A program made the translations under genes and the position numbers. DNA of 42,418 bases, taken from Prochlorococcus sp. AG-409-P19 (GTDB lineage: Bacteria > Cyanobacteriota > Cyanobacteriia > PCC-6307 > Cyanobiaceae). Position 1 is the stretch's first letter; the number at the start of each line of letters is the position of its first letter. The stretch spans positions 1-42,418 of the forward strand of contig QCKO01000009.1 in the NCBI GenBank assembly GCA_003215315.1, written 5' to 3'. Below the pieces are notes generated by a model that searched no databases, was not told where the DNA came from, and worked only from the letters and a program-made list of their open reading frames with translations. This document shows positions 37,010 to 42,418 of the stretch, piece after piece.

Positions 37010-38164
37010 TTAATTTTCCTTCAAGGATGATAAGGTTGCCGAGACTCCGGAACCCATAGGAAATTTTAATAATCCTAATTTGTTTAATGTTCCTTCAATT
37101 GCCGCAACAGCGGTTATAACATCACGATCATTTACAAAACCTAAGTGCCCTATTCTAAAAACTTTGCCTTTGAGATGATCTTGTCCTCCTGCAAGTAAAA
37201 TATCAAAATCATCTTTTACTAGTTTTCTGATTTTTTCTGCATCTATATCTTGAGGTTTTACCGCTGTAATTGCTGGACTGCCACAACCATTTTCTGCAAA
37301 TAATTCTAGGCCCATTGCTTGAATTCCGGCTTGGGTTGCTTTTTGATGACGGCTGTGTCTTTTGAAGATCGAATCTAAACCTTCTGCTTGCATCATATTA
37401 AGCGAAGTTTCTAGTGCAAAATAAAGATTTACTGCTGGAGTAAAAGGACTACTGTTATTTTGAACAGTTTTTAAATAAGGTTTTAAATCTAAATAAAATT
37501 TTGGTAAATCAGAAGTTTTATTTGCTTCCCAGGCTCGTTTACCCATAGCTACAAAACTTAGCCCAGGGGGCATCATGTAACCTTTTTGAGATCCAGAGGC
37601 AATCACATCTATGCCCCATTGATCCATAGGCACATTGCATGCACCTAAGCTTGTTACGCAATCTGCAATGGTTAATGCATCTCCATGGTTTCTTACATGG
37701 TGACTAATTGTAGAAAGATCATTAATGACACCGGTAGAAGTTTCAGAGTGAGTAATGATTACTGCTCTGATTGATTTCATCGTATCTTCTTCAAGCATTG
37801 CTTTGAATTTGTTTGGGTCTAAAGGAGAACCCCATTCCGCCTTGATTACTTGAACATCTAGTCCATATGCTTTAGCTACTTTGACCCATCTTTCTCCAAA
37901 CTTGCCATTGTCTCCACAAATAACTTTGTCTCCTTTTTTAAGTGTATTTATAATCCCTGCTTCCATTGCAGCAGTTCCACTTCCAGTAATTGTTAAGACA
38001 TCCCCGTTGGTTTGATGAAGCCATTTGAGTTGCTCAGTGGTTTTTTTGATTATTGTTTGAAATTCTCCGCTTCTATGACCAATGGGATGCTTTCCTAATG
38101 AATTTAATACGCTTTCAGGTACAGGAGTTGGCCCAGGGATCATGAGCGTTAATTTGTCCTGCAT
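37010..38164 (-). CDS. Alanine/serine-glyoxylate type aminotransferase
   Basis: This 384-aa protein is a class V PLP aminotransferase of the alanine-glyoxylate/serine-pyruvate group, which detoxifies photorespiratory glyoxylate in phototrophs. Landmarks: MIPGPTPVPESVL at the N-terminus, GHRSGEF, TGSGTAAMEAG, THSETSTGVIND, the aspartate in IADCVTSLGA and the Schiff-base lysine K194 in ASGSQKGYMMPPGLSFV. The C-terminal domain has ITAVKPQDIDAEKIRK and FRIGHLGFVN. The start is ATG at 38164. Older cyanobacterial annotations label this family 'soluble hydrogenase subunit', but nothing here suggests hydrogenase activity. Preferred amino donor cannot be told from the sequence. Confidence 0.9.
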   Translation of the reverse strand: MQDKLTLMIPGPTPVPESVLNSLGKHPIGHRSGEFQTIIKKTTEQLKWLHQTNGDVLTITGSGTAAMEAGIINTLKKGDKVICGDNGKFGERWVKVAKAYGLDVQVIKAEWGSPLDPNKFKAMLEEDTMKSIRAVIITHSETSTGVINDLSTISHHVRNHGDALTIADCVTSLGACNVPMDQWGIDVIASGSQKGYMMPPGLSFVAMGKRAWEANKTSDLPKFYLDLKPYLKTVQNNSSPFTPAVNLYFALETSLNMMQAEGLDSIFKRHSRHQKATQAGIQAMGLELFAENGCGSPAITAVKPQDIDAEKIRKLVKDDFDILLAGGQDHLKGKVFRIGHLGFVNDRDVITAVAAIEGTLNKLGLLKFPMGSGVSATLSSLKEN

Positions 38165-38227
38165 TTTTGCAAACTAGAGTCTTAATTATTATCTTAAAAA
38201 AATCACGAGCTAACAAGCTTTATCGTT

Positions 38228-39388
38228 ATTTCTTCCAACGATTTTCAAGGCCTCACTCTTCCATTATGGGTAGTTGCTGTAGCAAAGTCGGCAGCTCAAT
38301 GTTTATTGGATTCTCATTGTGTTGAAAATCAAACAGTTAATATTTCAGATGAAGATCAATGTTTTTCCATACCGATTTCATCTTGTGGATTGCTTGAGAG
38401 TGGTAGGAAATCATTGGCAATAGGACATTACGAATCAAAAGCAGCTTTAGATATAACTCGAGGCTTAGAGATATGGGCTTATGTAGAGTTTTTACAAATT
38501 GATTTAAACCAAACACAAACTGATAATGATGAATTTCCTTATTGGCTTGAGTTTATAGGTGGCTATGGGGTTGGAAAATTTGAAAATTCTAATCAACCTT
38601 GTATTTCTCAATTCACTAGAAATTTATTAGTTCAGAATCTTTATCCCTTATTACCAGATGGACACAAAATCAGAATAGAGGTTGTTTTTCCTCAAGGGAA
38701 GAAATTGGGATTACGCACAAGTAATAAAGCCTTTGGTGTTGTTGATGGCTTAGCTTTGATTGGAACACAAGCTGAGGTACAAATCAGTGCATCTCCAGAT
38801 CAACTTCAAAATGCGATAAATGGTTTACGTGTTATATGCAGTGATTCATCCTTTGATGGTTTTTTAACGTTTGTCATTGGTCAAAACGGATTGGATTTGG
38901 CAGAAAGGTTTGGCTTGCCTGCAAGGTCAATTGTTAAAACTGGTAATTGGTTGGGACCTTTAGTAATTGCAGCTGCAGAAGAAGGTGTTAAAAATCTTTT
39001 ATTGTTTGGTTACCATGGAAAATTGATTAAATTAGCTGGTGGTATTTTTCATACACACCATCATTTAGCAGATGGTCGAATAGAAGTTTTAACTTCTCTT
39101 GCAATAAATGAACAGATACCTTTGTATTTAGTCAAAAAAATCAACCAGGCCAGTTCAGTTGAGGATGCATTGTCTTTACTTGAACACAATGATTCCAAGA
39201 GTGTTTTTAGACTTTGGTCACGAGTTGCTATGGAGATTGAGAATAGAACTCAACAATATATAACCCGATATATGACTTCTTCAATGAGTGTAGGAGCAAT
39301 TTTATTTGATCGAAGTAGAAAGATTCGATGGACTGGTCCAGCTGGAAACCAGCATCTTTCTTCATTGGGTTTAAAGCTTAAAACGTAA
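38228..39388 (+). CDS. cbiD: Cobalt-precorrin-5B C1-methyltransferase, with a non-canonical start
   Basis: CbiD methylates C1 of cobalt-precorrin-5B in anaerobic corrin synthesis; Prochlorococcus makes pseudocobalamin. Core signatures are HYESKAALDITRGLEIWAYVEF in pieces, GGYGVGKF, IEVVFPQGKKLGLRTSN, GLALIGTQAEVQ and LLFGYHGKLIKLAGGIFHTHHHLADGR. The first canonical start in frame is TTG at 38306, but the conserved N-terminal motif FQGLTLPLWVVAVAKSAA is encoded at 38243-38296, upstream of it. In that frame no ATG, GTG or TTG exists between the stop at 38183 and 38306. I place the start at the ATT at 38228 (then SSNDFQG); ATC at 38222 is an alternative. A sequencing error upstream is also possible. 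Confidence 0.85.
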   Translation: MSSNDFQGLTLPLWVVAVAKSAAQCLLDSHCVENQTVNISDEDQCFSIPISSCGLLESGRKSLAIGHYESKAALDITRGLEIWAYVEFLQIDLNQTQTDNDEFPYWLEFIGGYGVGKFENSNQPCISQFTRNLLVQNLYPLLPDGHKIRIEVVFPQGKKLGLRTSNKAFGVVDGLALIGTQAEVQISASPDQLQNAINGLRVICSDSSFDGFLTFVIGQNGLDLAERFGLPARSIVKTGNWLGPLVIAAAEEGVKNLLLFGYHGKLIKLAGGIFHTHHHLADGRIEVLTSLAINEQIPLYLVKKINQASSVEDALSLLEHNDSKSVFRLWSRVAMEIENRTQQYITRYMTSSMSVGAILFDRSRKIRWTGPAGNQHLSSLGLKLKT

Positions 39389-39454: not shown

Positions 39455-41041
39455 ATGTCGTCTTTCACCCTTGATAAGGAACGTAATCCTGCAATTATCA
39501 TTCTTGATTTTGGATCACAATATTCTGAGTTAATTGCAAGAAGGATTAGGGAAACTCAAGTTTATTCTTTAGTTATGAGTTATATGACCTCAGCAGAGGA
39601 ACTTAAAGAATTAGGACCAAAGGGCATAATTTTGAGTGGAGGCCCTAGCTCAGTATATGAATCAGGAGCACCTTTATGTGATCCTGGGATATGGGAACTG
39701 GGAATACCGATTCTTGGGGTTTGTTATGGAATGCAATTAATGGTTCACCAATTAGGTGGTGTGGTTAATGCAGCAACCGGAAAAGCTGAGTATGGAAAGG
39801 CACCTCTAGAAGTAGATGATTCAACATCATTACTGCGAACTTTAATGAATGGTTCGACAATGTGGATGAGTCATGGAGATTCTGTTGAATCCTTGCCACA
39901 GGACTTTACGAGTTTGGCTCATACGAACAGTACTCCTAATGCGGCAATTGCATGTCATCGGCGTTCTTTGTATGGCGTTCAGTTCCATCCTGAGGTTGTT
40001 CATTCTTTAGGAGGTATGTCATTAATAAGAAACTTTGTGTATGACATTTGTAAATGTGAGCCGAATTGGACCACAAATACTTTTATCGACGAAGCAATTT
40101 CTCAAGTACAAAACCAAGTAGGAGATAAAAGGGTATTATTAGCTCTATCTGGTGGGGTTGACTCTTCAACGCTTGCTTTTTTATTAAATAAGGCGATAGG
40201 AAATCAGTTGACTTGTATGTTTATTGATCAAGGTTTTATGAGAAAGGGTGAACCAGAATTTTTAATGAAATTTTTTGATGATAAGTTTCATATTAATGTT
40301 CAGTATATAAATGCAAGACAGAGATTTATTTCCAAATTAAAAGGTATTGTTGACCCTGAGAAGAAGCGTAAAATCATTGGTAATGAATTTATTAGAGTCT
40401 TTGAAGAAGAAAGTGCCCGTTTGGGTCCATTTGATTATCTGGCTCAAGGCACACTTTACCCAGATGTAATCGAGAGCTCTGGTACTAATATCGACCCTAA
40501 AACGGGCGATAGAATAGCAGTTAAAATAAAAAGTCATCATAATGTTGGTGGATTACCTAAAGATTTACAATTTAAGCTTGTAGAGCCATTAAAGAAATTA
40601 TTTAAAGATGAGGTACGTAAAGTTGGTCAGTCTTTAGGTTTGCCTGATGAAATTGTGCGTAGACATCCTTTCCCAGGACCTGGATTAGCTATTAGAATTT
40701 TAGGAGAAGTGACTGATGAAAAATTGACCTGCTTAAGGGATGCAGATCTTATAGTGAGAGAAGAAATACGTCGATCAGGTTTATATCATGATGTATGGCA
40801 AGCCTTTGCAGTATTACTGCCAGTCTATTCAGTTGGGGTAATGGGTGATCAACGAACATATGCATGGCCTATTGTACTTAGATGTGTTTCTAGTGAAGAT
40901 GGAATGACAGCTGATTGGTCACGCATACCTTATGAAACTTTAGAACGAATTTCAAATCGTATTGTTAATGAAGTTCATGGTGTGAATAGAGTTGTATTAG
41001 ATATTACTAGTAAGCCACCTGGAACTATTGAGTGGGAGTAA
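39455..41041 (+). CDS. guaA: GMP synthase (glutamine-hydrolysing)
   Basis: GuaA aminates XMP to GMP, the last step of guanine nucleotide synthesis. From ATG at 39455 the protein is 528 aa; the frame opens earlier at TTG 39437, but the six extra residues are not family-like. The class I glutaminase domain has [18 protein letters not shown], the nucleophile C90 in LGVCYGMQL, and the His/Glu pair in VQFHPEV. The PP-loop ATPase [14 protein letters not shown] follows (about 228), then the C-terminal dimerisation domain with [18 protein letters not shown] and the final '[18 protein letters not shown]'. It converges on the TPR-oxygenase gene 62 bp away. Confidence 0.97.
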
Positions 41042-41103: not shown

Positions 41104-42418
41104 CTAACTATTTCTTCTGTCTCCAAATAATATTGTGACATTAATTCGACGATTCTCATAGCCTTCTTTGAATTCGTACTTATCAGTTTCATGAAATAAG
41201 TCAGAATTGAAAATAACAGCACGATTTTCTTTGTATGGAATAATTGTTGACTTTGTTTGACTTCTTTTGATCTCTTCTTTGATTTTTTTTATATCAGAAT
41301 TGTAACTCTTGTGAGACCAATCTTTTGGAGCCTCTACATCGTAGATGATTATGCCACCAGTCTTAGGGTTTAAATTCGCTTCATTTGGAGTAATCCAGAA
41401 ATTCACATTTACCGCTGCGGGATCTGCGTGAACATGGATGCCACTGAGTGACGAATCTACCTCTTTTGCGCGACTATCATATTTATAAGCCCATATTTGT
41501 TTTATAGGATAATCTTTGAATATTTTTGGGAATTTTTTACTTAGCTCGTCTGCTATTTGAAGCAGCAATGGACTAGCTAAGCCCTCACCCAAATAGGCTC
41601 CAATCCATCCAGGTGGTTTAATATCAAACCAAATTGTACTTCCTAGCAGAAACTTACGAAGGGAATCTAAAGCTAGAGGACTTAAGAAATTATCAATATA
41701 AGTTAATCCGAAATCATGATCAAAATAATTTTGTGTAATTTCTTCAGTATTTAATGAATTATTTACTGCTTCTTTTTTTAATTTAGGTGCCTCTATTTTA
41801 TGTATTAGATGATTATAAATCTCTTTGAGAAGGGTCTTATGTTGATTACTTAGAGCAATTATTTGGGTTTCGGATGGCCACTTAATTTCAGTGGCAACGG
41901 TTTTATAGATGTGAGCAAGGTTAGTAAATTTTTCAGTCTCATGACCCTGCGAAGCTAAATATTCCAATTGTTCAATATCATGTTTTATTTTAGCCTTACT
42001 AACTGTTGTAAATCTTTGGTGATTCGATTCTTTATTTTTCTTTCCTCTCAGCAACTCAGCACTTTCTGAAAAACATTTTAAGGATAATTCTTGTGAGCCT
42101 TTATGAAGAAGAATGCTACCTAAAGTTTGATAAGGCTGTGCCAAGGTAGGTTTCAGCTCAATTGCTTTCCTAGTAGATAATTCTGCTTCTTTTAATTTGC
42201 CTAGATCATTCAATAAGACTCCCAGATTTAAATATGCTTCGGCCCAAGTGGGTTTAATGTCAATTGCTTTGCGAATTGATATTTCTGCTTCTTGTAATTT
42301 TCCAAGCTCTTGTAAAAGTACTCCTAGATTCAAATGTGCTACTGCGATATTAGGTTTGAGTTCAATTGCTTTGCGAATTGATAATTCTGCTTCTTGTAAT
42401 TTTCCAAGCTTTCTAAAT
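41104..42418 (-). CDS. TPR protein with a C-terminal 2OG/Fe(II) oxygenase domain, 5' part missing
   Basis: The coding frame is open to the right edge, so the N-terminus is outside the window. The visible 437 codons start with tandem 34-residue TPR repeats (LGKLQEAEISIRKAIDIKPTWAEAYLNLGVLL and variants), then a basic linker and a C-terminal domain of the 2-oxoglutarate/Fe(II) oxygenase fold: HVHADPAAVNVNFWITP gives the HxD pair, about 79 residues later FNSDLFHETDKYEF gives the distal His, and RRINVTILFGDRR supplies the arginine for 2-oxoglutarate. Such domains hydroxylate proteins or sugars; the TPR part may bind the substrate. The real substrate is unknown. A TTG at 42333 is an internal codon, not a start. 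Confidence 0.82.
   Translation of the reverse strand, partial: FRKLGKLQEAELSIRKAIELKPNIAVAHLNLGVLLQELGKLQEAEISIRKAIDIKPTWAEAYLNLGVLLNDLGKLKEAELSTRKAIELKPTLAQPYQTLGSILLHKGSQELSLKCFSESAELLRGKKNKESNHQRFTTVSKAKIKHDIEQLEYLASQGHETEKFTNLAHIYKTVATEIKWPSETQIIALSNQHKTLLKEIYNHLIHKIEAPKLKKEAVNNSLNTEEITQNYFDHDFGLTYIDNFLSPLALDSLRKFLLGSTIWFDIKPPGWIGAYLGEGLASPLLLQIADELSKKFPKIFKDYPIKQIWAYKYDSRAKEVDSSLSGIHVHADPAAVNVNFWITPNEANLNPKTGGIIIYDVEAPKDWSHKSYNSDIKKIKEEIKRSQTKSTIIPYKENRAVIFNSDLFHETDKYEFKEGYENRRINVTILFGDRRNS
42260..42410 (-). repeat. 102-bp-spaced direct repeats in TPR-coding DNA
   Basis: A 49-nt segment at 42260-42308 recurs at 42362-42410 with one mismatch, exactly 102 bp (34 codons) apart. Related, more diverged copies continue to the left (about 42158-42210). 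The near-identity of DNA, not only protein, suggests recent duplication of TPR units. Confidence 0.85.

Follow-up and report, generated by a model that had tools for sequence, protein, structure and literature searches.

Where does translation of a gene begin when no ordinary start codon stands before the conserved part of its product? This question is raised by cbiD in the 42,418-nucleotide stretch of Prochlorococcus DNA analysed here (the window), and its answer bears on the supply of B12-type cofactors. If ATC at 38222 is taken as the start, cbiD occupies 38222–39388 on the plus strand, i.e., 388 codons and a TAA. The gene is CbiD by profile search: TIGR00312 matches with 240.4 bits (cut-off 200; profile positions 3–344 of 346) and PF01888 with 166.4 bits (cut-off 25; 3–254 of 254), so that its role as cobalt-precorrin-5B C1-methyltransferase is a sequence-based prediction. 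The AlphaFold2 model of the protein (mean pLDDT 83.5, pTM 0.63) has one PDB match under E 0.001 in Foldseek, 1sr8, the CbiD of A. fulgidus, with an E value of 6.0e-10 and a low TM-score (0.34/0.46); a sequence search of the PDB gave no match at E 0.001. Upstream, a divergent aminotransferase gene lies on the minus strand (37010–38164; best NCBIfam model NF045640, 330.5 bits, under its cut-off of 650), its ATG separated from the cbiD ATC by 57 nt. Downstream on the plus strand is guaA (39455–41041; NF000848, 790.8 bits, cut-off 400), which starts with ATG. A TPR-repeat protein on the minus strand (41107–42417) runs off the end of the window; several TPR families matched it, all below cut-off.

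Canonical start here means ATG, GTG or TTG, and AUH (ATH in DNA) means AUC, AUU or AUA. A preliminary description of this DNA had placed the conserved N-terminal block of CbiD, FQGLTLPLWVVAVAKSAA, at 38243–38296 and had found no canonical codon in its frame before the TTG at 38306–38308, which lies downstream of the block. Our reading of the frame agrees on all these points: there is no in-frame ATG, GTG or TTG between 38198 and 38305. The stop at 38183 that was given as the upstream limit is indeed in frame, but it is not the nearest one; TAA at 38195–38197 is closer, and any start that keeps the block must therefore fall in the 15 codons from 38198 to 38242. The AUH codons between this stop and the block are ATC at 38222–38224 and ATT at 38228–38230. 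As the first in-frame canonical start, TTG 38306 would open a 360-codon reading frame, and its product would be a CbiD without the first helix and without FQGLTLPLWVVAVAK. We consider such a start very unlikely indeed, as it would drop P14, A21 and A24, three residues that do not vary among 25 aligned cyanobacterial CbiD proteins, together with nearly all of the helix at residues 13–30 of the model, most of which is formed by the block (block pLDDT 88 and 95). Two other genomes, G095 and G132, have their first canonical codon 35 codons into the open frame, within the conserved protein.

The preliminary description had also allowed for an indel or a substitution in the sequence, and the window does come from a draft genome (G000; 35 contigs, 67 percent complete) in which an ATG could have been lost by sequencing or assembly error. 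The survey of relatives speaks against this, and we regard the chance of an error as close to negligible. cbiD is present in 285 of the 300 genomes of the family search and in 36 of the 41 same-genus genomes, G000 included. The start region was taken from 138 genomes, again with G000, and was readable in 137 of them (L088 being unreadable), representing 27 genera; the search was bounded by the upstream stop and by a point four codons short of the P of LPxW, and covered at most 40 codons. No in-frame canonical start was found in 30 of the 137 genomes, in 11 of the 27 genera; in four of the 30 (L037, L052, L111, L115) the open frame extends past the 40 searched codons. For 17 of the 30, a single contig is listed, and the ATC of the window is the same ATC in 35 of 35 relatives. 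The remaining 107 genomes have some ATG, GTG or TTG within the searched segment which could serve there: a TTG lies a few codons 3' of the AUH column in same-genus relatives (genus g1) and in g14 and g10, and a TTG lies 5' of the column in many g5 genomes.

We use the label marine-type for 21 genera, grouped by kinship, which would correspond to Prochlorococcus, marine Synechococcus and Cyanobium-like members. In the six other genera (g6, g9, g17, g22, g31 and g33; 11 genomes) the segment searched always contains a canonical codon; an exception found later is L173 of g6, which has no canonical start and carries ATC. Outside the family, a canonical start is located upstream of the block in all 26 cyanobacterial CbiD genes read, which were hand-picked, many of them for short open frames.

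Which AUH codon is used can be judged from the relatives' cbiD, the comparison proposed in the preliminary description. Its suggestion of a rare ATT or ATC start is supported for the ATC at 38222, which is conserved in the same column in 35 of 35 same-genus relatives (36 of 36 in g1 with the window), but not for the ATT two codons downstream: although 38228 is likewise an in-frame AUH codon, its column reads AGC in 35 of 35 of these relatives, and initiation there seems very unlikely. The variation around ATC 38222 in g1 also looks like the edge of a protein. The six codons 3' of the ATC vary almost exclusively at synonymous positions (GTC/GTT, TCT/TCA, TCC/TCG), the sole exception being GAT to AAT in 2 of 35, and the two codons 5' of it differ among relatives in the amino acid encoded (S/F/P/A and S/Y/C). 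Only four codons separate the nearest stop from the ATC in 31 of the 35 relatives. Counting against ATC 38222 is another ATT, three codons 5' of it, which is also conserved in g1 (34/35).

In other genera the codon at this place is mostly ATC, ATT or ATA, and sometimes ATG or TTG. The column is ATT in g14 (13/13) and g29 (3/3) and ATA in g23 (3/3); g5 has ATC in 19 and ATT in 2 of 21 genomes, and g25 has ATC in 19 and ATG in 6 of 25. An exchange within g25 can be read directly, i.e., ATC GCT GAG ACG in L098 and ATG GCT GAG ACC in L066. By eye, TTG stands in the column in L057, L059, L069 and L054, and GTT and GTC in L045 and L047. Of the seven g10 genomes, four have ATT (one codon nearer), one has TTG and two have GTT/GTC; please note that our start-assigning rule is loose for g10, g11, g19 and g39, where by eye g11 and g39 have TTG and g19 is ambiguous. 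A column that shifts among near-cognates of AUG looks like a start codon. When the share of ATH is averaged by genus over the 21 marine-type genera, it reaches 0.62 at 13 codons upstream of the P of LPxW, against 0.13 at 14 codons and 0–0.19 at the remaining distances from 5 to 23 codons; this peak is more than chance. Judged by eye, the AUH start seems to be kept in about 17 of the 21 marine-type genera.

The sequence upstream of cbiD was inspected for further signals. A hexamer of loose pattern, similar to TATCTT and accompanied by an A-run, is found in 123 of the 126 marine-type genomes; in the window TATCTT lies at 38190–38195, followed by the A-run, 26 nt 5' of the ATC. An in-frame ATH, ATG, GTG or TTG is located 18–30 nt 3' of the hexamer in 112 of these 123 genomes; six shifted windows gave 28–68. 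The hexamer and A-run, listed on the plus strand as a possible -10 element, were first assumed to be the -10 box of cbiD; the only promoter-like site returned by the promoter scan is on the minus strand (38216–38188), so that the hexamer, a candidate element, may belong to either strand. ATG occurs at the assigned place in 6 of the 126 marine-type genomes, all of them in g25 (L066, L067, L103, L104, L106 and L113), and in these six no start-class codon is found at the hexamer's usual distance, a hint that the leader is altered; in g25 the start codon may therefore change together with the leader. Also in g25, an ATG sits inside AAAAAATGATC 5' of cbiD, out of frame in L109, L114, L116 and L117 and in frame in L110, whose alignment is one base shorter than that of the other four in this region. 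By eye, AAGGA or AGGGA, a candidate Shine-Dalgarno sequence of the kind that might compensate for a non-canonical start, stands nine bases 5' of the ATC in most g1 relatives and is absent in the window; none was seen before the ATC in g5 or g25. None of four stretches stood out in RNA folding (z from -1.57 to 0.51); those of L109 and L058 sit just 3' of the start, so that the result bears on the start through the other two.

Taken together, cbiD is very probably translated from an AUH codon here and in most marine-type members of the family, and in the window translation most likely begins at AUC 38222. This reading rests on sequence comparison, namely on the lack of a usable canonical start in any frame of the window, on the conserved AUH column, on the protein-like constraint that sets in at this column in g1 and on the exchange with AUG or UUG in other lineages. 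The AUC (AUU or AUA elsewhere) would be decoded by the usual initiator fMet-tRNA despite a third-base mismatch; the tRNA would pair with two of the three bases, and IF3 would disfavour the complex. AUH starts would be weak because IF3 discriminates against them, and CbiD would thereby be kept low. Such a weak start may be maintained by selection, low expression being advantageous, since AUG is only one change away and yet is seldom found at that place. Because AUC, AUU or AUA is the apparent start in most close relatives, the missing start looks like a biological feature that has been kept for long and may act as a translation brake, rather than a sequencing error. We also considered a special initiator tRNA: the strict pattern GGGCTNNNAACCCGAAGG was applied to 25 genomes, of which 19 had matches (21 in total) and G000 had none, with anticodon CAT in 20 matches and CGC in one (G006), so that there is no sign of a special initiator tRNA within the reach of this strict pattern. 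In G006, three initiator-tRNA-like stems lie within 2.1 kb (G006:C1:237420–239486), with CAT twice and CGC once at the anticodon place.

A different route to the block would begin at a canonical start outside the frame and then need programmed frameshifting or transcriptional slippage, for which the A-run upstream of cbiD could offer a site. Counting starts within 75 nt 5' of the P, an other-frame canonical start reaches the block in 45 of the 126 marine-type genomes and in 8 of the 19 genomes listed among those lacking a canonical start, so recoding may occur in some relatives. None reaches it in the window, nor in L034, L046, L049, L055, L058, L083, L100, L101, L119 or L121, and as an explanation of the AUH pattern we hold recoding to be extremely unlikely.

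Initiation at AUH seems not to be confined to cbiD. A comparison of 400 kb of G095 with 400 kb of G132 gave 116 orthologue pairs, of which seven were flagged, and on reading these only cbiD and mpg had no canonical start before the block in both genomes. For G095 and G007, 338 pairs were kept; both members were flagged in 15 of them and one member in 18, most of the latter lying outside the listed set that was read. In the listed pairs mpg again has no canonical start in either genome; cbiD has none in G095, and in G007 only a TTG seven codons after the ATC. The other listed pairs have an aligned canonical start or are open reading frames of rRNA regions, except for one possible CTG start. Flagged pairs were set aside on reading when the alignment simply ran on beyond an aligned ATG or when they were antisense or rRNA-region frames. 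The possible CTG start belongs to a conserved gene (L308; G007:C1, about 160006–160767) with block YLSKPRTLQFWAS, before which G007 has no ATG, GTG or TTG; the L at the start of the block is CTG in G007 and TTG in G095.

The gene mpg encodes 3-methyladenine DNA glycosylase (TIGR00567). We fetched 30 family loci and 28 loci from outside, the best-scoring ones and not a random draw, and left out one and two of them, respectively; a canonical start is missing in 22 of 29 loci in the family and in 0 of 26 outside it. These loci were placed by coordinates, which replaces a motif scan that had given 13 of 19 readable loci without a canonical start. In the 22 family loci without one (among L270–L299), ATA, ATC or ATT precedes the block. 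In the genome of the window, mpg (L282; G000:C4:110026–110556, plus strand) has no canonical start and carries ATA in place, and there is no other-frame canonical start reaching its block. Such starts do reach the block in 12 of the 24 mpg loci listed, and in g14 an other-frame TTG lies just before an A5 run in 5 of 9 loci (L271, L279, L283, L284 and L299), making slippage a possible alternative there. The frame in these five loci reads TGA or TAA, then in most of them AAA, then ATA. Additional mpg matches occur in G184, G146, G140 and G071; the matches listed for G184, G140 and G071 extend over no more than about positions 1–107 of the profile, some with stop codons, and look like decaying N-terminal copies.

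With apparent AUH starts in both genes, cbiD and mpg may both be mis-started in annotation. It is possible, if rather doubtful, that a few genes of marine-type members, cbiD and mpg at the least, have AUH starts selected to remain weak, and that initiation fidelity (the level or activity of IF3) jointly sets the synthesis of B12-type cofactors and base-excision repair, independently of infC. We found no report on AUH starts of cbiD or mpg in Cyanobiaceae within our partial coverage of the literature. The two genes are a natural case for asking why weak starts persist.

To our knowledge, few bacterial genes depend on AUU, AUC or AUA. One of them is pcnB of E. coli, which starts with AUU and resembles cbiD in having such a codon although it encodes an unrelated enzyme. 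The comparison made with infC and pcnB in the preliminary description fits as a mode of action; infC itself, though, begins with ATG in each of the 17 same-genus loci read. infC, which encodes IF3, starts with ATT in E. coli and with ATC in Streptomyces, according to PMC5472188; it shares with cbiD the AUH start, which in the known cases is restrained by IF3, and differs in being autoregulated, whereas cbiD is a B12 enzyme gene. The same source describes sigR of Streptomyces, whose GTC start is repressed by IF3, whose replacement by a canonical start leads to overproduction, and whose start had been missed in annotation; across the genus it is GTC in 32 of 34 and GTT in 2 of 34 (PMC5472188). 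sigR is like cbiD in having a non-canonical start conserved throughout a genus, and unlike it in using GTC, in being described for one genus, in its extensive AGGAGGTG ribosome binding site and in being experimentally proven. Non-canonical start codons restrained by IF3 are already known as a kind, and the conservation seen here is unusually wide.
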